This document shows, piece after piece, positions 53,656 to 64,000 of a DNA stretch of 64,000 bases (position 1 is the stretch's first letter; every line of letters begins with the position of its first letter). The notes under the pieces were generated by a model that did not search any database, was not told the DNA's origin, and saw nothing but the letters and a program-made list of their open reading frames with translations. Source of the stretch: Caldicellulosiruptor owensensis OL (GTDB lineage: Bacteria; Bacillota; Thermoanaerobacteria; Caldicellulosiruptorales; Caldicellulosiruptoraceae). The position numbers and the translations under genes were made by a program. The stretch spans positions 1,170,501 to 1,234,500 of the forward strand of contig NC_014657.1 in NCBI RefSeq assembly GCF_000166335.1, given 5' to 3'.

Positions 53656-53685
53656 TTTATAAAATTTACAAAAAGGATGGGTAGG

Positions 53686-54771
53686 ATGGAAGATAGGATT
53701 TACTTAAATTTAAAGAGGAATGAAAAAAACATTCCAATTGTTTTTGTTGAGAGAATAGAAAAAATTAGAGAATATATTTTATCTTTTAACTGCTCAAATC
53801 TTGTAATATTTACTGACAGGTTGGTCTACAGGCTCTACAAAGATTTTATTGATAGCCTGCAGCACTCTTACCTCTATCTTTTTGATAAAGGTGAGGAATC
53901 AAAGTCAATAGAGTCTTACCTGAAAGCCATTGATTATCTTTTGGATAGAAATGTGGATAGAAGAGCTTTGTTTATTGCAATCGGTGGCGGGGTTGTTGGG
54001 GATGTAGTAGGGTTTATAGCATCTACATATAAACGTGGTGTAAGGCTCATTCACATTCCAACAACTCTTCTTTCAATGGTTGATAGTAGTATTGGTGGTA
54101 AGACTGGAATTAATTATAAATCTTATAAGAACCAGATTGGAACATTTTATCAACCTGAGATGATAATAATTTGCCCTCAGTTTTTAGGAACACTTCCAAA
54201 AAGCGAGGTTTTATCTGGCTTTGGTGAAATAATAAAATATGGTTTTACTTTAGACAAAAGTATATTGGATATTAAAGATAGATTTGAAAAAGATGTTTTT
54301 GAGATTTTTCAAGATAAAATACTTGCTATGCAGTTGATAAAGAAATCTATTAACTGTAAAGTTAAAGTTGTTGAAAAGGATGAAAAAGAATCATTTTTGA
54401 GAGAAATTCTGAATTTTGGCCACACAGTAGGTCATGCATTAGAGACGTATTACAATTACTATTTTTCTCATGGTATATTCGTTATTTTGGGAATGGTTGC
54501 TGAGATGATACTTTCAAACATTCTATTTAATTTTGATTTGTCAAACTTAGATTTTTTAATAAGAATTTTGGAGAAGAATAGTATAAAACTTCCTCAAAGA
54601 TTTGAGAAGAGCCAAATTATCTCAATTATGAAGTATGACAAGAAAAATATAAGTTCTTCTATAAGAATTGTTTTATTGAAGGATGTATGTGATTATGTTT
54701 TAGGTTACGAAATTAATGAAGATATTTTATATGAGGCACTTGATAAGTTCGAAAAAATTGTTTTATCTTAA
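53686..54771 (+). CDS. aroB: 3-dehydroquinate synthase
   Basis: 361 residues from ATG at 53686, 9 bp from AAAAGG; the ATG at 53677 touches that site. GGGVVGDVVGFIASTYKRGV (NAD), PTTLLSMVDSSIGGKTGIN (substrate Lys/Asn) and HTVGHALE (zinc His) are intact. It closes DAHP to 3-dehydroquinate in the shikimate pathway. Alone between terminators; other aro genes are elsewhere apart from aroH at 27163. Confidence 0.94.
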   Translation: MEDRIYLNLKRNEKNIPIVFVERIEKIREYILSFNCSNLVIFTDRLVYRLYKDFIDSLQHSYLYLFDKGEESKSIESYLKAIDYLLDRNVDRRALFIAIGGGVVGDVVGFIASTYKRGVRLIHIPTTLLSMVDSSIGGKTGINYKSYKNQIGTFYQPEMIIICPQFLGTLPKSEVLSGFGEIIKYGFTLDKSILDIKDRFEKDVFEIFQDKILAMQLIKKSINCKVKVVEKDEKESFLREILNFGHTVGHALETYYNYYFSHGIFVILGMVAEMILSNILFNFDLSNLDFLIRILEKNSIKLPQRFEKSQIISIMKYDKKNISSSIRIVLLKDVCDYVLGYEINEDILYEALDKFEKIVLS

Positions 54772-54901: not shown

Positions 54902-55127
54902 TTATATCAAATACGAATCATTTTTGGTTTTAGTATTTTTGTCGATATAAATTTCTTCAAAGCCATCATTTGAAAAATAATTTTTTCTTATCTTTTCCTC
55001 ATTTTGAGATGAAATAATTTCCGTTTTTAAATTTATTATACTACTTTTGTTGTTTATTAGATGTATTTTCAGCAGCAACAATATTCAAGTTGTACAGAAT
55101 AGGAAATAACACCAGAAGTGAAATTAA
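54902..55127 (-). pseudogene. Remnant of a secreted-protein gene
   Basis: On the minus strand two open segments in different frames read like one broken protein: a hydrophobic signal-like stretch (LISLLVLFPILYNL, then AAENTSNKQQK) ending at a stop, then about 46 residues in another frame (INLKTEIISSQNEEK ... NDGFEEIYIDKN) ending at TAA 54902-54904. Neither has a ribosome site of its own. No family recognised. I see no intact gene between 54869 and 55170. Confidence 0.4.
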
Positions 55128-55174
55128 TACTGTTGTTTACAGAATTTTACAATTATTGATTTTTCTAATTTGCA

Positions 55175-55367
55175 TTACAAATCAACTCCCTTGAATATAA
55201 GCATCAATAATCTTTTACTAATAATACAAAAGTAAAATCCCACAATTCCGCCTATTGTATTCGCTATAATATCGTCTATGTCAAAACATCTGCCAGAATT
55301 GTTTGTCATTATCATACTAATTAACTGCAATACTTCTATGCATAAAGAAATCGGTCTAAGTTCACAG
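55175..55367 (-). pseudogene. VanZ-like protein fragment
   Basis: The minus strand encodes about 60 residues ending at TAA (55175-55177) that match the C-terminal half of VanZ-like membrane proteins: ISLCIEVLQLI, then GRCFDIDDIIANTIGGIVGFYF. The N-terminal half and start are missing; upstream sequence changes character near 55370. The stretch 55380-55479 holds no recognisable gene. VanZ relatives affect teicoplanin susceptibility. Confidence 0.65.
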
Positions 55368-55479
55368 TTTGATTTGAAGAGCTTGGAGGATTAACTCCGA
55401 AGGGTTGATTTTTCTCATCGATATCTACTGTTGACAGCGTTATCAAGTATTTTAAACTGCCGAAATTACCCATTAATTT

Positions 55480-55644
55480 TCAAACATTTTCGACTTACCT
55501 CTTGAGTGGTTTATTTATTTTATCATTATTATACCACACATGTAGAAACCTTACAATTGTAAGATCAGACAAAAAAAAATAAGCACATTCTCTCAATTTT
55601 TTGGTAAAATATCATACTATAAGTTCTAGTAACTAATTTTCAGC
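55480..55644. repeat. Promoter repeat, copy A
   Basis: About 163 bp nearly identical to copy B at 59466-59627 in the same orientation. The most conserved part is 55555-55640, a long AT-rich stretch. On the minus strand it carries a promoter, a TTACAATTGTAA dyad, a ribosome site and a four-codon frame (M-F-E-N-stop, start codon at 55487-55485). What follows on the minus strand is gene debris. Confidence 0.85.
55528..55562 (-). promoter_or_regulatory. Minus-strand promoter with BlaI-type operator (copy A)
   Basis: Reading on the minus strand: TTGTAA (55556-55551), 17-bp spacer, TATAAT (55533-55528). The 12-bp perfect palindrome TTACAATTGTAA (55551-55562) overlaps the -35. BlaI/MecI repressors bind TACA-N-TGTA-type dyads; the same core TACAATTGTA recurs at three other promoters here. 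Confidence 0.6.
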
Positions 55645-55755
55645 TTTCATCAATAATATGTATCCTTAACAGGTTTGTGTTATAATATATATAAATTTTG
55701 TTTTCCACCTCCTTCTTATATTCCACTTTCAGTACATTTTTATTTTATCATCAAC

Positions 55756-55965
55756 ACAGAAATAAGTAGAGTTTCTGAATTTCGCAGATGTATAAGGGTT
55801 TTCAGTGATTGGTTTTCAGAGATAGTGAATTCCTTTGATGTTCCGTATACAAATAGCACAACAGAAGGTTTTAACAACAAGATAAAGGTGTTAAAGAGGA
55901 ATGCATTTAGATATAGAAATTTTGAAAGATTTAGAAAGAGGATTTTATACAGTTGTGGTAGTTAG
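55756..55965 (+). pseudogene. ISL3-family transposase, C-terminal fragment
   Basis: The last about 65 codons match the C-terminus of ISL3 (DDE_Tnp_ISL3) transposases: FRRCIRVFSDWFSEI, then PYTNSTTEGFNNKIKVLKR and FRYRNFERFRKRILY. The frame is open back to about 55675 but that part (PPPSYIPLSVHF...) does not resemble the transposase. Catalytic N-terminal two-thirds are missing, so it is dead. Confidence 0.8.
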
Positions 55966-56131
55966 AAGTTGGAAAGTAAATATTTAAAACCCGCCGGAGG
56001 GATGGGGAAAGGTAGTATTAACTTTTTAAAATTATTTTCCTATAAGAGGTATATATGATATTAAATGTATGGTTGATAAAACTAAAAAGGTGGGCATTCA
56101 GAATACCCACCCCAACTCTTGACAAAGAACC
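55756..56131 (+). mobile_element. Right-hand remnant of an ISL3-family element
   Basis: Contains the transposase tail and, at 56116-56131, the sequence whose reverse complement is GGTTCTTTGTCAAGAG, the usual start of ISL3 terminal repeats. A small hairpin, GGTGGGCATTC with GAATACCCACC, lies just inside the end. The left end is not in the window at the expected distance. 56132-56292 holds no gene that I can see. Confidence 0.65.
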
Positions 56132-56292
56132 GTTTTTTCTTATAAATTCTAAGAGCTGCTCTTTTGTTAAAACATTTTACATAACAAAAGACTTCCCTCT
56201 TGGAAATTTTTGTTTATATTCTTTCTTACCAAGAAGGAGGTCCTTATACTTTACATAGTCTAAAATATTTAAATTTTGTCGAAAATGAAAAA

Positions 56293-57510
56293 TTAATTTT
56301 TAATAACATCATAATTCACTAAATTACCATTAACTTTGAACAAACGCTTAACTGTTTTACCTTCCAGTTTATAAATTGTACAACCCTCAGATGTCAAAAA
56401 AGAGTTTTTATCAAGAAAATAAATTTCTCCATTTACATAAATAGGCCAGTATGCATTCAAATCTTTTGAAATTTCCTCTATAAACTCTAAATTTCCTCTC
56501 TTAAAATCAAGAAAAACCAATTTCGCTCTAAAAGGTTCTTTGATATTAGAATAATCGCCAAATCCTTTATACTGTGGTTCACCCTGCGAGAAAATAAACT
56601 TATCTTCGGAAGTAAAACAACCCGGTGGATTACATAGCCCTGTATTTTTCGTAAACTCTGTTATTTTCCCTGTTAACACGTCTGCAACTGAAACCCAAAT
56701 ACATGCTGGATCAGCAGGAGTTGTAGTACTGATAGCAACATATCTGCTATCCCTGCTCCATGCAATAGAGTAAATGATTCTATATACATTATTGATTGGC
56801 AAATCTCCAAATCTTTCGGAAAGCAATTTCTTCTTGATATTTTTATTTAAATCAATCACAACCAATGATGTAGCAAGTTCATTTTCTTTATTATCGTTCT
56901 CTCCACAAGCTATATATCTTCCATTTGGTGATAGAACAGGCCAGCAAAATGACCCCTTTGCAACTTGTTTTAATATAAAACTGTTATTCGCAGAAGACTC
57001 TTTATTTTTTGAAGCAGGTTGAGACTTTAGAAGATACAGCCCTTTTTGAGTTGCAATAACAAACACATTTCTTTCTTTATTTACACTAATATATTCTATT
57101 TCCTCTGGCATTTGCTTGCAATAAACCTCTTTTTTGGATTTATAATCCACTAAAATTAGCTTTTTCAGATTTGCACTACAATATGCTACCTGTTCTATTC
57201 CCCATGCAAAAAAACGAGTTGGGAAATAACCCCATTCTGAAGTCATTTTATAGTCTATTTTAATTCTGAAAAGTAAATCTTCTCTACCACTACTATGCCT
57301 GATTTTGCCATAAAATAAAGCAAAAAAGTTACCATTTTCAGTTTTATCAAAACGCTCTACATAGCCTACTTTTTCTGAAATATTCCCTATTAAATGACTT
57401 ATAATAGCATAATAAATTATTCCTACTATTATTAATGTTATAAGTATACTTAAAAGTAAACTCTTATAGATATTTTTTATTTTTAAAACATTTAGTTTCA
57501 TATTACACAT
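56293..57510 (-). CDS. Membrane-anchored TolB-like beta-propeller protein
   Basis: 405 residues on the minus strand. One N-terminal membrane segment (about 15-40, LLLSILITLIIVGIIYYAII) and a large extracytoplasmic part with WD40/PD40-like repeats, for example WPVLSPNGRYIACG and SIAWSRDSRYVAIS. No catalytic motif is visible. It lies 123 bp downstream of the broken propeller-hydrolase gene and may be read from the same BlaI-type promoter. A paralogue-like protein is encoded at 60182-61415. Function unknown; a ligand-sensing or protein-binding surface role is a guess. Confidence 0.7.
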   Translation of the reverse strand: MCNMKLNVLKIKNIYKSLLLSILITLIIVGIIYYAIISHLIGNISEKVGYVERFDKTENGNFFALFYGKIRHSSGREDLLFRIKIDYKMTSEWGYFPTRFFAWGIEQVAYCSANLKKLILVDYKSKKEVYCKQMPEEIEYISVNKERNVFVIATQKGLYLLKSQPASKNKESSANNSFILKQVAKGSFCWPVLSPNGRYIACGENDNKENELATSLVVIDLNKNIKKKLLSERFGDLPINNVYRIIYSIAWSRDSRYVAISTTTPADPACIWVSVADVLTGKITEFTKNTGLCNPPGCFTSEDKFIFSQGEPQYKGFGDYSNIKEPFRAKLVFLDFKRGNLEFIEEISKDLNAYWPIYVNGEIYFLDKNSFLTSEGCTIYKLEGKTVKRLFKVNGNLVNYDVIKN

Positions 57511-57633
57511 TCTACCCCTTTTTAAAGCAACTATTCTAATATCAGTAAATAAATACTATTTGGCTGTATTTCTGGATAGTTCTATTAAAAATATAACTAT
57601 CTAACAGTCATTAATGTTCTTTATTATTGATTA

Positions 57634-59314
57634 TCAATCAGTTACATACTTATAGCGCCATAGCTCATACTTATTGTTAACTAAATTAGTATAAGTATGC
57701 CATCGACAGATTACTCGGTCATACCCACCCGTAGTGCTTTCATATACCACATATTCATTATTAGCATTTCTTGTGTAATACAACATTACATGGTAAGAGA
57801 ATATCTCCTTGTTTTAATAAAGAATAATCTCCTATATTGCCCAATGAAATTGACACACTTTTTAACTGTGTTGTACTGTGATGACTAGCTAGTCCCCAAC
57901 ATCTACTTACAAATCCTGAGCAATCAACTCCTGCTGTTCCTCCTACATAACCATGCTGAGAAGATGTATCAACATTTCCAGCTGCATATCCCTGACTAAT
58001 CTCACTATCAAAACCAGTCAAAGAGCTAAAACCACCCCAACAATAAGGAACTTGGTAATAGGATGTGTTATATGATTTTATAAAACAAGGTCTTTTCCAC
58101 CAATTTGGATTTGCTACTTTTGAACCATCATAGTTCTCCTTATTACAATACCACTGATGCCACTGATAATTTTGAGCCGTTGAAATTATTCGAGATCTGC
58201 TTATGCTGCTATTTGTAATAGAAGAAAAATATTTTTCTACCGATTTTTCAGATTGAACTACTGTATCATTTGGAATATTTTAATTTTTGTATTTTTCTGT
58301 ATATTTAATAAATTCTTCAAAAGATTGCCAAGAAGTAACCGTAAGTACATCAACACTCTTTTCAGAAGGTACCAGTACATAGACATTTCCTTCATCAATT
58401 ACAATAGGCCGTTGAGGAATAATATAATAAATATCAAGAGGAATTTGAACAGCTCTTTCAATTTTACCACTTTCACTGTCAAATCCAACTATCGAAATTC
58501 CATCTTTGTTTTCCAATTTCCAATATACTATATTTCCACTCATTCCAATATAGCGGTTAGTTCCTTGCTCAAATCCTGAAGGAAATTCAAAACGTATAAT
58601 TTTTCCTGTTAATGTATAAATCTGCCCTCCTATTACTTTTCCATTTTCCCAATTAAGCTTCCATACAATTTTATCATAAGACATATTATTTTTTTTCTCT
58701 TCTGCAATCGTAAGAGTTTTTGTGCCATTAGAATCTGGTATAAAGTTATTTATTTTCTTATCTTTTAATATCACTGTTTTAATTCCTCTTTCATCTGAAA
58801 TTACGACATATGGTCCATCTTCACTAACTCCAAAATCAGATAATGGCTCCAAATAAACTTGTCTTTGTAAGGATTTGATTTCGACTTGACCATTCAATAT
58901 TGTAATCAAACTGTTTAACCCAGCATCAAATAAATATATCTTCCCTACCTTATCAACTGCCATATTGTAAATCCAATAATTCTCTGGGAAAAATATTCTA
59001 TCAATTAAGTTTCCATTGGTTTTACTGTATATTAAAACCCTATGATGAACATTGTCAAGTACATATACTTTGTCTCCTTTGACATCAAAGGCATTTGGAC
59101 CTTCGGGACCACTTAGCCCAGCTGAACCCGTGTATTCGATTCCCTCTTCAGATACAGGAATACTTACAATTTTCTTAAAGTTGGAAAGCTTAAAGTCTTC
59201 TTTAACTTCTTTACTATCAGTTGCACTGGTTTTGATAGTTAAAAAAGATAAAGAAGAGAATAAAATCAAACTACAGATTATCAAACACGCTATCATTTTC
59301 TTATAATTTTTCAT
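57634..59314 (-). pseudogene. Secreted NHL-type propeller fused to NlpC/P60 hydrolase, broken gene
   Basis: Minus strand. ATG at 59314 follows AAGGAGTG; the first 344 codons give a signal peptide and an NHL/SMP-30-like propeller (GPEGPNAFDVKGDKVYVLD, ENYWIYNMAVDKVGKIYLFD). TAA at 58280-58282 interrupts the frame, but the same frame goes on for about 155 codons into an NlpC/P60-type domain with Cys in GVDCSGFVSRCWG. After GDILL (near 57800) the frame shifts by one base; the next frame supplies HVMLYYTRN (catalytic His) and runs to TGA at 57634-57636. One ancestral protein of about 560 residues, now with two lesions. The propeller part may still be made as a truncated secreted protein. Confidence 0.8.
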
Positions 59315-59465
59315 TACAGATTCACTCCTTCCTTGATATATCTCTAAATTTTAACAATAATATGAAGATCCTTGTCACATTGAGTAATTTTGCCTTTGTA
59401 TTACTATTGTTGCTATTTTGTTTTGCTTAATATTAGAGTCATTTTAAATCTACTTTTACTAATTT

Positions 59466-59627
59466 CCTAACATTTTTGACTCACCTCTTGAATAGTTTTT
59501 TGTTTATTATTATTATACCACGCATGTAGAAACACTACAATTGTAATATCAGACAAAAAAAATAAGCACATTCTCTCAATTTTTTGGTAAAATATCATAC
59601 TATAAGTTCTAATAACTAATTTTCAGC
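59466..59627. repeat. Promoter repeat, copy B
   Basis: About 162 bp, nearly identical to copy A (55480-55644), same orientation. The minus-strand promoter in it points at the propeller-hydrolase gene starting at 59314. It also encodes a four-codon frame (M-L-G-N-stop, start codon at 59473-59471) after AGAGGTGAG. The two copies differ by scattered substitutions and small indels, with the block around 59550-59610 almost unchanged. Confidence 0.85.
59512..59546 (-). promoter_or_regulatory. Minus-strand promoter with BlaI-type operator (copy B)
   Basis: Minus strand: TTGTAG (59540-59535), 17-bp spacer, TATAAT (59517-59512). The palindrome TACAATTGTA (59536-59545) overlaps the -35. It drives towards the gene at 59314 with a leader of about 190 nt. 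Confidence 0.6.
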
Positions 59628-59704
59628 ATAGAAGAATAGAAAGACATGTTTAGGCTTGAATCTTTTTGTATAAAAATCTCCAAAAAAACTTTTCAAAAAC
59701 CTCT

Positions 59705-59754
59705 TTACAAATTGGTTTTTACTATTGTAAAATATATATGTAACTACAATTGTA
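59705..59754 (+). promoter_or_regulatory. Promoter with two BlaI-type operators before a blaI stub
   Basis: TTACAA (59705-59710), 17 bp, TAAAAT (59728-59733). TACTATTGTA (59720-59729) overlaps the -10 and TACAATTGTA (59745-59754) lies 15 bp further on. The layout and much of the sequence (59690-59822) repeat the blaI promoter at 61533-61660. Confidence 0.6.
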
Positions 59755-59772
59755 AAAGAGAGTAATGTAAAA

Positions 59773-59835
59773 ATGAAAAAGGATTTATTAAAGCCATTAA
59801 AAGCAGAGTTAGAGGTGAGATTAAAAAAACATTAA
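59773..59835 (+). pseudogene. blaI stub (first ~17 codons only)
   Basis: ATG at 59773 begins MKKDLLKPLKAELEVRLKKH then TAA. Residues 2-16 repeat the start of the intact blaI at 61611 (NKDLLKPSEAELEV), then the sequence decays. A duplicated blaI reduced to promoter plus N-terminus. 59836-60028 shows no gene. Confidence 0.75.
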
Positions 59836-60028
59836 ATGGGAGTGAAGAAAGGTTTATCAATAAAAATTGTTTTAATAAGGAAGAGAAATTAAATAAGAAT
59901 GATAAACATGTTTAGCATAAATAACTATGTTTTTGAAATATATGTATAAAACAGGGGTGATAGTTATGTTTTGTTGTAGTTTCGATACTTCTTGAACATC
60001 CTAAAAACACTGAAATATTCTATTTTGA

Positions 60029-60136
60029 GCTCAAAAATTTGATTCAGATTCATCTAAATACAATAACGGATGTAAATTGACTGATAATTATAGCGAATTT
60101 GTCAAATTATGCAAAGACAGAGGTATCGTTTGGTAA
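60029..60136 (+). other. Possible C-terminal coding fragment
   Basis: An open stretch of 35 codons with no start, between TGA 60026-60028 and TAA 60134-60136 (contains KLTDNYSEFVKLCKDRG). Codon use looks coding but no family is recognised and no ribosome site is present; perhaps debris of a lost gene. Confidence 0.2.
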
Positions 60137-60181
60137 TTTAAAATTAGATCATACAAATCACAGAAACGAGGAGAAGTAAAA

Positions 60182-61415
60182 ATGTGTAATATATCAAAAA
60201 CGACAAAAAAAATATTTATTTTGATAACTGTTTTTATTTTATTTTCTTTTCTTAAATTTATTAATAGTCAACCATTATTGCAAATAGTATATTGTAAAGA
60301 TCTTTTTGAATATTTTCCCAAAATGAAAGGAAATTTTAATAATATCCTTTTGAAAACATTTAAAAAGGATAAAGATGAAAATTTGATTATTGCTATTGAC
60401 TCAAACAGATTTATTGGACTTTCTAACAATGAAGATGCATATTTTATTAAAGACTTTGAGAAAAACTATACAAAGTTGATATACAAAATTACTGAAAAAA
60501 AACTTTCTTAGCATTGCCGAAAACTTTGATGGAAGATATTTTTATTGGATAGATGGAAAAAGAAGAAAAGGATATTTATATCAAAGTTGTAATTGGAAGT
60601 TATATGCATATGATATTAATACCAATACTATCTGCTTGATTGATAAATGTAATGAAACAAGTATTTCAGCTAATGATGATATGAAAGCCAAAGCAAGTGT
60701 TATGTGGAGAGATATATTTGCACACAATGGCAAAGTTGTTTACTTAAATTACGAAAAGGATAAGAAAGGAATTATCTATTTAGTTGTAAAGTTATATGAT
60801 CTAAAAACAAAAAAATATTCCATAATTGAAAAAATACCTGAAAAAGAAAATAGATTAATATATCCTCCATCTATTTATGGTGATAATATAGTTTGGTGTA
60901 TATCAAATATTATAGAAACTCATACAATGAGGATAGAAAGTGGAGAAATATACTTATATAATATCGAAAAAAAGATAAAAACGAAAATTTCTCCAAATAA
61001 CGAACTTGTAATGCCAAGGATTTACAAAAATTATGTTATTGCTCTTCGCCATATAAATGGCATAAGTTCTCAAGATCAAATAGTTTTATGTGATATATCA
61101 AAAGCACCAATTAGATGGAAAATAATAGTATACCCTGAATTGTATTCTATGAAAAATTCAAATATGATTACATTTGCAGACCCATATGTTTCAGGAGGAT
61201 ATTTGTCTTGGTACGGCAATTACTTAAAAGACGGTATTTATATATTTTCATTAAAAGGTTTAAAATATTACAAGATTCCATATTTAAAACTGCAGAAGGG
61301 ATATTCCAATTATATCATGCTTTATTCTGAAACTCCTTCTACTAATTTATTTATAAGAAATTATTTTAAAGAAAACACTAACAAAAAATATAGTGAGTAT
61401 TTAATTTTAAAGTAA
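60182..61415 (+). pseudogene. Secreted beta-propeller-like protein split at an A8 run
   Basis: ATG at 60182 follows GAGGAG. The first frame gives an N-terminal hydrophobic segment (KKIFILITVFILFSFL) and 109 residues, stopping at TAG 60509-60511. The protein clearly continues in the -1 frame (NFLSIAENFDGRYFYWIDG... DIFAHNGKVVYLNYEKD) to TAA at 61413-61415, about 411 residues in all. The switch is at A8, 60495-60502; one more A would restore the frame. The sequence has propeller-like repeats and shares its start pattern (MCNxxK plus membrane segment) with the protein at 56293. It may be dead or rescued by polymerase slippage. Confidence 0.65.
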
Positions 61416-61461
61416 ATAGCCAACAATTGTAAATTGATAATGGCAATTGATTAAGATAACA

Positions 61462-61494
61462 GGGGCTGTCCAAAAGGACAGTCTCATTATTTTT
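61462..61494 (+). terminator. Probable terminator before blaI
   Basis: GGGGCTGTCC (61462-61471) pairs with GGACAGTCTC (61476-61485) around a 4-base loop with a G-U pair and mismatch near the base, followed by ATTATTTTTAC. Confidence 0.55.
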
Positions 61495-61543
61495 ACTTTT
61501 CAGTTATAAAAAAAGAAATAAAAATCATTTCAAAAAACCTTCT

Positions 61544-61593
61544 TTACAAAATACTTTTTACTATTGTAAAATATATTTGTAATCACAATTGTA
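61544..61593 (+). promoter_or_regulatory. blaI promoter with BlaI-type operators
   Basis: TTACAA (61544-61549), 17 bp, TAAAAT (61567-61572). TACTATTGTA (61559-61568) overlaps the -10 and ACAATTGT (61585-61592) lies downstream, just before AAGGAGAG. Suggests autoregulation of blaI and the protease gene. Confidence 0.65.
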
Positions 61594-61610
61594 AAAGGAG
61601 AGTGAAGCAA

Positions 61611-61991
61611 ATGAACAAGGATTTATTAAAGCCATCAGAAGCTGAGTTAGAGGTTATGAAAGTTTTGTGGGAAGAAGGAAAGGCGCTCAGTGCACCAGAG
61701 ATAGTGCAAAAGTTAAAAGAAAAAGACATCAAATGGGAAAAGTCAACCATATACACCTTGATTGACAGGCTGGCAAAGAAAAAGGCAATAAAACAAGAGA
61801 AAAAGGATAAGCTTTACTATTACAGTCCATCAATTAGCAAAGAGGAATACGCAAAGATAGAAACAGCAAGGGTATTGAATAAGCTATTTAATGGCTCTGT
61901 AAAAGATTTAATAGCAGCATTAATTGAAAGTGGAAACTTAAAAAAAGAAGAGCTTGAGGAGATTAAGAAGTTATTAGGAAAAGAGGAGTAG
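61611..61991 (+). CDS. blaI: BlaI/MecI-family repressor
   Basis: 126 residues from ATG at 61611, AAGGAGAG 8 bp upstream (a GTG three codons earlier overlaps that site). Winged-helix Penicillinase_R protein: LLKPSEAELEVMKVLWEEG, then KWEKSTIYTLIDRLAKKKAI as recognition helix, and a C-terminal dimerisation helix set. Relatives are cleaved when a membrane M56 protease is activated, which releases target promoters. The protease gene follows after 7 bp. Operators for it occur at this and three other local promoters. Confidence 0.92.
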   Translation: MNKDLLKPSEAELEVMKVLWEEGKALSAPEIVQKLKEKDIKWEKSTIYTLIDRLAKKKAIKQEKKDKLYYYSPSISKEEYAKIETARVLNKLFNGSVKDLIAALIESGNLKKEELEEIKKLLGKEE

Positions 61992-61998
61992 AGATGAG

Positions 61999-63558
61999 AT
62001 GAATATAGAAGTTATATTCAAATGGATTTTAGTAATGACAGTAGGTGGTAGCATAGCTGTTTTGATATTTGCTATTTTGAGCAAAATCTTTAAAGAGCAT
62101 TTGAGCGCAAGGGCAAGGTATTATATTTGGATGATAGGGCTTTTTTGTTTTACCATTCCATGGAATGTATTGATTAAATTTTGTAAGAAAGATAGTAGAG
62201 TACTAAATCAGAGTATTATATTAGGCAACAGCAGTCATATGACCTCAAAATTAAATAACAACAATGCATTGAACTTACAACTAACAGAAAATACAGCACA
62301 AGGTGGGGCTTTAACTGCCCTGCCTTATAAAAATATTAGTTATTTTAACCCTGAAAAATTTGTAGAATTTATTGGTTATGTTTGGCTTGTAGGTGCCATA
62401 GTATTTTTTGCATGGTTTTTGATAAGGTATATTTGGTTTAAAGTGATACTTATAAGAAGTTCACGAAAATGTTCAAATGAATATTGCAGAAGAATGATTG
62501 AAAGGTATTGCAATCTAAGAAAAATTCCAAGAAAGATAAAGATATTAGAAAGTGATATTATACAAACACCTATGCTAATCGGAATAATTACTCCGATCCT
62601 AGTAATACCTACAAAGGACATAGTAAGAGAAGATTTAAGATTAATCATAAGACATGAACTTGTACACTTCAAGAGAAAAGATGTACTTGTTAAATGGCTA
62701 AGCAAATTAATAAATGCACTTCATTGGTTTAACCCCTTGGTATACTTTGCAGTTTTAAAGCTAAATAGAGAATGTGAATATTCATGTGACGAAGAAGTAA
62801 TAAGAAAGCTTAAGAAGGATGGCAAAAGAAGGTATGCAGAGGTACTTTATAACACACTTTTGGTGAGTATAGGCAGTGGAGCAGGCGCGGCATTTGGTCT
62901 GGTAGGTAGAAAAGAAAGCATTGTTGAGAGATTTAGGTTTATTATGAGTTTGGAGGCAAGGAAAATGAGCAAAGGTGCAAAGGTGTTTGTTGTGGTGTTA
63001 GTATTGACAACAATATTCTTAAGTGCATTTGTTCAAATTTGGGCAAAAGATATTTTGAGTTTTGATAGCGATGAAATAGAGGCAATCAAATCAACTATAG
63101 AAGGATTTTATGAAACACAGTACAAAGCTTATCTTCAAATGGAGTATATAGATATAACACCGTACTTGGATATGTCAAAGATACAGAATCATAATAAAGT
63201 TGTTGCATTAAAAATGTTAGTATTCAGAAGAAAATATACAGACGAAAAAAAATATTGTTATGTTGAGAAGAGACATTTTCCATATGAACTTCATTATAAG
63301 AACATAGAGCTTGATGGCAACAAAGCCAAGGTAGTTATTGACTTAGAGATAAAACTGAAAGAAGCATATCCATCATTTATTTCTTATGGTGATAATATTT
63401 TTGAATTAGAAAAGCAGGATGGGACATGGAAAATTACAAAGCATATCTATGACAAATGGGCCTTAATGCATTATGAATTCTCTATTGACCAAAAGTTACC
63501 AGAACCTGATTACGAGCAAATAAAAAGGCAAATAGATAGAGATTTTGGAATTAAGTAA
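61999..63558 (+). CDS. M56-family (BlaR1-like) membrane metalloprotease with non-PBP sensor domain
   Basis: 519 residues. Membrane segments near 8-28, 38-55 and 125-148, zinc motif HELVH (H219-E220-H223) followed by FKRKD, and the third-ligand region ECEYSCDEEVI. A membrane segment near 328-345 is followed by an outside domain (about 350-519). That domain is only about 170 residues, has no SxxK/KTG transpeptidase set, and looks alpha+beta, NTF2-like (IEGFYETQYKAYLQ, then IELDGNKAKVVIDLEIKL and KQDGTWKITKHIYDKW). So the protease half is classic but the signal is probably not a beta-lactam. Paired with blaI upstream. Confidence 0.88.
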   Translation: MNIEVIFKWILVMTVGGSIAVLIFAILSKIFKEHLSARARYYIWMIGLFCFTIPWNVLIKFCKKDSRVLNQSIILGNSSHMTSKLNNNNALNLQLTENTAQGGALTALPYKNISYFNPEKFVEFIGYVWLVGAIVFFAWFLIRYIWFKVILIRSSRKCSNEYCRRMIERYCNLRKIPRKIKILESDIIQTPMLIGIITPILVIPTKDIVREDLRLIIRHELVHFKRKDVLVKWLSKLINALHWFNPLVYFAVLKLNRECEYSCDEEVIRKLKKDGKRRYAEVLYNTLLVSIGSGAGAAFGLVGRKESIVERFRFIMSLEARKMSKGAKVFVVVLVLTTIFLSAFVQIWAKDILSFDSDEIEAIKSTIEGFYETQYKAYLQMEYIDITPYLDMSKIQNHNKVVALKMLVFRRKYTDEKKYCYVEKRHFPYELHYKNIELDGNKAKVVIDLEIKLKEAYPSFISYGDNIFELEKQDGTWKITKHIYDKWALMHYEFSIDQKLPEPDYEQIKRQIDRDFGIK

Positions 63559-63622
63559 TAATTTGTATGATATTAGAAAAATGGGGGCGAAAAGTTATGC
63601 CATACATTCTTATTTTCAATAG

Positions 63623-64000
63623 TTCCTGATTAAACAGAAGATAATAGTTTCAAAAAATTTATTATTTAATCAAGAATTTTCTCCTGATTTGAAAAAAGAA
63701 TATAAAAACTTCAGTGATGTTGAATTGAAAAACAATATTGGAATTTTCAGTTTGCCAGCAGTAAATCATTATTATAGTACATCAAGGGCTGTTGAATATG
63801 CAAACAAATACGTATTTAACCGTAATACCAAGTTTTATGATACAACCTCTGGAGGAGGAGATTATACAAACTTTGCATCTCAAGTTTTATGGTATGGATT
63901 TGGAGCAAATGATACTATGAACGATATATTAAACAAAGTGATGATGGTTCCTGGTTCATATGAAGAAGGGTGGTATGCTGGTCCTGGTGGAGGCTCAAAA
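63623..64000 (+). pseudogene. Amidase_6-like wall-hydrolase frame, no start, catalytic Cys replaced
   Basis: The frame is open from after TAG 63620-63622 to the window edge, 126 codons. From about codon 55 it matches the putative amidase domain PF12671: YYSTSRAVEYANKYVFNRNT, then GGGDYTNFASQVLWYG. Family members have GGDCTNFxSQ; here the Cys is Tyr. No ribosome site or good start is present; an ATG at 63581 in the same frame is cut off by the TAG. The gene continues past 64000. Probably decayed, perhaps the former tail of the locus controlled by blaI. Confidence 0.6.

Follow-up and report, generated by a model that had tools for sequence, protein, structure and literature searches.

A candidate BlaI/M56 regulon of secreted cell-envelope proteins in Caldicellulosiruptor owensensis, with a receptor ectodomain shared by a secreted amidase

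Firmicutes commonly carry BlaI/M56 pairs, which are usually annotated as regulators of beta-lactam resistance. The sensor of BlaR1 resembles class D beta-lactamases (PMC9834060, PMC7593790), TACA/TGTA has been reported as the BlaI/MecI operator (PMC7253601), and in Bacillus licheniformis the wall dipeptide gamma-D-glutamyl-meso-diaminopimelate (gamma-D-Glu-mDAP) releases BlaI from DNA (PMC3305447). Here we analysed a window of 64,000 nucleotides (bases 1170501-1234500) from Caldicellulosiruptor owensensis OL, whose genome is one contig of 2,428,903 bases, in which a BlaI repressor and an M56 receptor protease lie among genes for wall hydrolases and propeller-like proteins. The locus was compared across 12 Caldicellulosiruptor genomes (coded G...), and M56 proteins were surveyed more widely in 110 genomes of the phylum. 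Judged from the sequence, it is likely that BlaI and M56 here control a local set of secreted cell-envelope proteins, and that the logic of BlaR1 is thus used beyond beta-lactams. The initial annotation had proposed an unfamiliar envelope-sensing cassette in which surface propellers and hydrolases are induced through M56; our comparison supports a local regulon, the regulation itself being a prediction. No description of the cluster was found in the literature searched.

The blaI gene (61602..61991, + strand) was intact and encoded 129 amino acids (aa) from a GTG codon, with an ATG at 61611, and the winged-helix family PF03965 (Penicillinase_R) matched the whole protein (2e-31, 109 bits against a cut-off of 22.6). 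It was the sole bona fide BlaI in the genome, all other matches being weak and partial, and was conserved at 89-97% in 10 other genomes of the genus. Other BlaI paralogues were rejected as owners of the operator dyads described below, being weak and partial matches here and lacking M56 in two relatives. These orphan paralogues, found in G003 and G011 (L122:7092-7539 and L124:7233-7653), each followed closely on a TACACATGTA dyad of their own and lacked an M56 gene. The M56 (BlaR1-type) receptor protease (61999..63558, + strand) was also intact, with 519 aa and a match to PF05569 at 2e-55 (188 bits), and its orthologue was present at the same place in 11 of the 12 genus genomes (74-100% identity). 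The gluzincin motifs HELVH (residues 219-223) and E260xxxD264 were kept, and the spacing of 41 residues from HEXXH to the glutamate equalled that of Staphylococcus aureus BlaR1 (PMC9834060). Hydrophobic windows started at residues 3-14, 43, 120-135, 185-191, and 323-332, which points to several membrane helices without fixing their exact number, and the last window was followed by about 165 residues.

These last residues constitute the ectodomain (63058..63555, + strand). The BlaR1 model matched residues 16-349 of the M56 protein only, below its cut-off, and no Pfam match to a penicillin-binding or class D beta-lactamase-like sensor was found in the ectodomain. Residues 354-516 shared 51% identity with the N-terminal domain of the downstream amidase of relatives. 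That sensor and effector share a domain is a new finding; it was missed in the initial annotation, as was the fact that the promoters are duplicates. The fold of the ectodomain is probably NTF2-like, as judged from Pfam matches to SnoaL_4 and Lumazine_bd_2 (0.005-0.01, below the cut-offs) and from the helix-then-sheet order in its low-confidence model. No Pfam family covered the domain and a PDB profile search gave no match, while the single-sequence AlphaFold models (mean predicted confidence, pLDDT, of 39 for M56 and 46 for the ectodomain) were too poor to use.

Like blaI, the M56 core, the ectodomain, and the amidase were under purifying selection, with ratios of nonsynonymous to synonymous divergence (dN/dS) of 0.16-0.34 for M56 and of about 0.16-0.3 for both copies of the domain. 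For several pairs of species, synonymous divergence over short segments was lower in the ectodomain and the amidase than in the M56 core, which suggests that the two were possibly exchanged together between species. In G008 (L057, 9185-11218 with M56 turned to the + strand), the propeller of the propeller-NlpC protein replaced the ectodomain in frame, giving an open frame of 677 aa, and an insertion sequence (IS)-like gene lay between blaI and M56. Since a fragment of the next gene directly follows this fusion, it may be a deletion product, and as proof of a sensor-effector rule we keep it as suggestive only.

Four promoters with dyads at the -35 or -10 had been proposed at 55528, 59512, 59705, and 61544. 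All four exist and carry these dyads, and alignment showed that they are near-copies of each other in two pairs, and therefore represent two duplications rather than four independent inventions. In the class I layout, TTTACA and TAAAAT are separated by 18 bp; one TACA-N2-TGTA dyad adjoins the -10, and a second lies 25 bp further downstream. This layout was found at the blaI promoter (61543..61593, + strand; TTTACA-18-TAAAAT at 61543-61572), with dyads TACTATTGTA at 61559-61568 and CACAATTGTA at 61584-61593, and in its duplicate (59704..59754, + strand; TTTACA-18-TAAAAT at 59704-59733), with dyads TACTATTGTA at 59720-59729 and TACAATTGTA at 59745-59754. Here each dyad of the blaI promoter had one mismatch, and in relatives the dyads of this promoter were perfect. 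The promoter at 59705 is real; it is the duplicated blaI promoter, still trailed by the first blaI codons (59773..59815, + strand, by alignment with the blaI start), upstream of a broken secreted propeller gene, and this 5' end is all that remains of a second blaI in the window. In the class II layout, a perfect TACAATTGTA covers the -35, which is separated by 17 bp from TATAAT; the spacer holds a half-dyad, and in some relatives this is a perfect TACATATGTA. One class II promoter (55528..55562, - strand; TTGTAA-17-TATAAT at 55528-55556, dyad at 55552-55561, half-dyad TACATGTGTG) faced the VanZ-like and secreted-protein remnants, and the other (59512..59546, - strand; TTGTAG-17-TATAAT at 59512-59540, dyad at 59536-59545) faced the propeller-NlpC operon.

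A genome-wide motif scan showed that the dyad is uncommon at promoters outside the locus. The exact dyad TACAATTGTA occurred nine times in the genome, against two for the reversed control; three of the nine were the intergenic promoter sites of this locus, and the remaining six all lay within open frames of 251-825 codons in unrelated coding sequences. Across the genus, the fetched in-locus sites of TTACAATTGTAA were intergenic, and 11 of the 12 out-of-locus sites examined were within coding sequence. Within the window, the relaxed dyad, allowing 2 mismatches at most, showed weak enrichment (15 matches vs 10.8 expected), and TACANNTGTA was found 4 times vs 1.3 expected. The composite class I and class II patterns, which were derived from this locus itself, gave 42 matches in the 12 genomes (27 of class I and 15 of class II), all in this locus, with zero matches for the reversed-pattern controls. 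The informative part of this result is that the geometry recurred before different genes in 10-11 species and that the composite operators were absent from G009, the only one of the 12 genomes without the M56 gene. Chance dyads were ruled out as an explanation by the genome and genus scans.

Several members of the cluster had been described as broken, which was borne out by comparison with intact relatives. On the - strand, the VanZ-like gene (55175..55375) was reduced to a 51-aa open reading frame with PF04892 at 1e-7, which matched residues 100-172 of the 172-aa protein of relatives at 81% by tblastn, and a secreted-protein gene, 177 aa when intact, was left as a remnant of 34 residues (55342..55443; tblastn 85%). 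The propeller-NlpC/P60 gene (57761..59314, - strand), encoding 563-574 aa in relatives, retained a propeller frame at 58280-59314 with the NlpC part downstream in shifted frames. The secreted propeller-like gene (60182..61415, + strand; 410 aa in relatives) was split into two frames (60182-60511 and about 60444-61415; tblastn 86% and 93%). The amidase gene (63662..64000 and past the window end, + strand; Amidase_6 at 2e-10) had lost its signal peptide and N-terminal domain, and its GDC motif reads GDY. Besides blaI and M56, the intact genes were that of a membrane-anchored propeller-like protein of 405 aa (56293..57510, - strand; 65% to a 402-aa protein of a relative, weak WD40/PD40 matches) and that of a 210-aa lipoprotein just beyond the window. 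The regulatory pair has persisted here while most of its putative targets have decayed. For the gene assignments of the initial annotation, our searches gave Pfam matches for BlaI, M56, Amidase_6, and VanZ, and weak matches (NHL, WD40, DUF5128, PD40) for the propellers. The locus is bounded on one side by a dehydroquinate synthase-like gene (aroB, 53677-54771) and on the other, beyond the window, by genes whose sequence suggests mtnA and an MTA phosphorylase. A fragment of an ISL3-family transposase was present at 55675-55965, between the promoter of the VanZ-like remnant and the membrane propeller gene.

Intact versions had been expected in relatives, and syntenic intact clusters were found there between aroB and mtnA. 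With blaI taken as forward, the units included a 410-aa secreted propeller-like protein, blaI, an M56 protein of 517-519 aa, a secreted Amidase_6 protein of 382-397 aa, the 210-aa lipoprotein, the 563-574-aa propeller-NlpC/P60 protein, and a membrane propeller of about 401 aa. A second Amidase_6 protein (421 aa), a 208-aa protein, the VanZ-like protein (172 aa), and the 177-aa secreted protein were encoded in reverse orientation, and three relatives had a C39-like peptidase frame. In the Amidase_6 proteins, PF12671 covered the catalytic domain (87 bits vs a cut-off of 23) and the GDC motif was present. The propeller protein matched the NlpC/P60 profile weakly (17 bits vs a cut-off of 23), with a DCSGF motif present. 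Most of these units were preceded by operators. No single relative held all units, and their order, copy number, and integrity differed between species. In G003 (L052), two blaI-M56 copies flanked inserted secreted-protein genes, and in G010 (L058), all that was left of one M56 was an ectodomain frame of 139 aa, preceded by an operator.

From these arrangements a mechanism can be proposed, in which BlaI is predicted to bind the dyads and to be cleaved by its cognate M56 protease. BlaI sitting on TACA-N2-TGTA dyads at the -35, the edge of the -10, and the start region would block RNA polymerase at its own and the neighbouring promoters. The M56 ectodomain would bind an envelope ligand at the cell surface. 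This ligand is probably a wall or surface polymer on which the amidase docks or acts, since that enzyme has the domain as well. By homology with BlaR1, ligand binding would activate the cytoplasmic metalloprotease, which would cleave BlaI, so that the amidase, the NlpC/P60 enzyme, the propellers, and the lipoprotein could be made. BlaI may in addition respond directly to wall fragments, as it does to the dipeptide in B. licheniformis (PMC3305447). The regulon itself may have grown as the blaI promoter was copied, the duplication of which is seen in the window, the copied blaI body decayed, and a new gene took over the operator.

Several points weigh against this interpretation. The BlaI proteins of Clostridium thermocellum bind a different motif (PMC8457756), so that family membership does not dictate the operator, and for CopY, TACANNTGTA is required yet does not suffice by itself (PMC7253601). 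Since the composite patterns were derived from the locus, their exclusivity to it is partly built in, and the unbiased dyad count backs a locus-exclusive operator less strongly. The NTF2-like label is also weak, given the Pfam values, the lack of a PDB match, and the poor model described above.

Among the alternatives, the dyads might belong to a duplicated repeat rather than to control by BlaI, with the cluster being a decaying hot spot of insertion. The promoters are indeed duplicates of two types, and IS fragments and pseudogenes surround them, but the dyads keep their -35/-10 geometry in 11 species before different genes, no composite operators occur where the BlaI/M56 pair is missing, and the regulators are under purifying selection, which leaves this explanation very improbable. 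A conventional beta-lactam-responsive bla system that has lost its beta-lactamase, with the wall enzymes as a repair response, would agree with the role of BlaI and M56 as beta-lactam regulators in S. aureus and B. licheniformis, with the reading that the authors gave to similar operons of C. thermocellum (PMC8457756), and with the ability of a wall dipeptide to free BlaI from DNA (PMC3305447). However, the similarity to BlaR1 ends before the ectodomain, where an unrelated domain replaces the penicillin-binding sensor, and no gene for a beta-lactamase or penicillin-binding protein (PBP) was seen in the clusters; we regard this version as unlikely, and a plain beta-lactam system, with its penicillin-binding sensor and lactamase, was ruled out.

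The cluster could also be an envelope toxin/immunity module or one that distinguishes self from non-self, in which the hydrolases hit other cells, stand-alone domains or lipoproteins protect, and M56 switches the module on. Such a module would suit the fast turnover of a single locus, with its duplications and decay, the occurrence of the domain as free-standing lipoproteins in another genus, and the lower synonymous divergence of the ectodomain and amidase, with its hint of interspecies exchange. The absence of any recognised toxin, immunity, or dedicated export domain from the cluster and the resemblance of the targets to ordinary secreted or membrane-anchored proteins speak against it, and we give it a small chance, slightly above that of a bla system without its lactamase. 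A local regulon of envelope proteins under BlaI and M56 remains our preferred interpretation.

The survey beyond the genus addressed whether other M56 receptors share a domain with their neighbours. Outside the genus, the contig scan gave distant M56 proteins only. The ectodomain occurred as a stand-alone protein in other genera of the class (about 200 aa, mostly lipoprotein-like, 65-77% identity), with no BlaI nearby at the loci L157, L158, L159, L161, and L162, and one genome of another genus had an M56 tail beside an amidase remnant. Among about 26 other M56 proteins with ectodomains, two, from unrelated lineages, had an ectodomain that clearly matched a secreted neighbour within 9 kb. In the BlaI/M56 pair of L175 (G039:C13, 8490-18468), the ectodomain was of the NAGPA (phosphodiester-glycosidase) type, with 62% identity to the next gene and 44% to another; two secreted NAGPA proteins were nearby, and the blaI promoter had tandem TACA-N2-TGTA dyads. 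In L188 (G142:C93, 4356-6949), the ectodomain shared 65% identity with a secreted protein of 209 aa encoded nearby, which matched no Pfam family above the cut-off. Most surveyed M56 loci were without such sharing at the sequence level. The supporting cases are the probable NTF2-like domain with the amidase, the propeller with the propeller-NlpC/P60 protein (one species), NAGPA with NAGPA, and an unnamed domain with its 209-aa neighbour; BlaR1 fits the pattern through the resemblance of its sensor to class D beta-lactamases. It is conceivable, though we hold it somewhat doubtful, that M56 receptors in general sense through a copy, tethered to the membrane, of the extracellular domain found in the secreted enzyme under their control, so that the ectodomain is swapped together with the target and each predicts the other, BlaR1 and beta-lactamase being one case. 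If true, orphan M56 ectodomains would give a concrete way to predict what the receptors sense.

The locus is a well-bounded putative regulon whose sensor, without a penicillin-binding domain, shares its ectodomain with an amidase that it apparently controls. It offers a candidate circuit for the control of wall hydrolases in a thermophile and an example of how a regulon may grow by copying the promoter of its own repressor. Compared with known systems, it shares with the CopY/CopR copper repressors the repressor superfamily and the TACANNTGTA operator core (PMC7253601), but this BlaI contains no cysteine and hence no CXC metal site, which ruled out a copper (CopY) system, and its partner is an M56 protease instead of a copper exporter. 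The BlaI/BlaR1 operons of C. thermocellum (PMC8457756) are likewise found in a thermophilic Firmicute and have paired inverted repeats and small defined regulons, whereas their operator consists of GTCTAT/GACTAT repeats, and the passages of that report that we consulted mention neither sharing of a domain between sensor and effector nor propeller or NlpC targets. The closest likeness is to the bla and mec divergons of S. aureus (BlaI-BlaR1 and MecI-MecR1), which also combine a winged-helix repressor and an M56 gluzincin receptor in one operon, TACA/TGTA dyads, autoregulation (repression being predicted here), and a sensor domain related to a secreted effector (PMC9834060, PMC7593790). Unlike these divergons, the present locus lacks a penicillin-binding sensor and has neither a beta-lactamase nor PBP2a as a target; its sensor is probably NTF2-like (a propeller in one species) and shared with a secreted wall amidase, and its putative targets are Amidase_6, NlpC/P60, and propeller proteins. 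The switch is of the familiar BlaI/BlaR1 kind, and the sensor and the targets are what is new.

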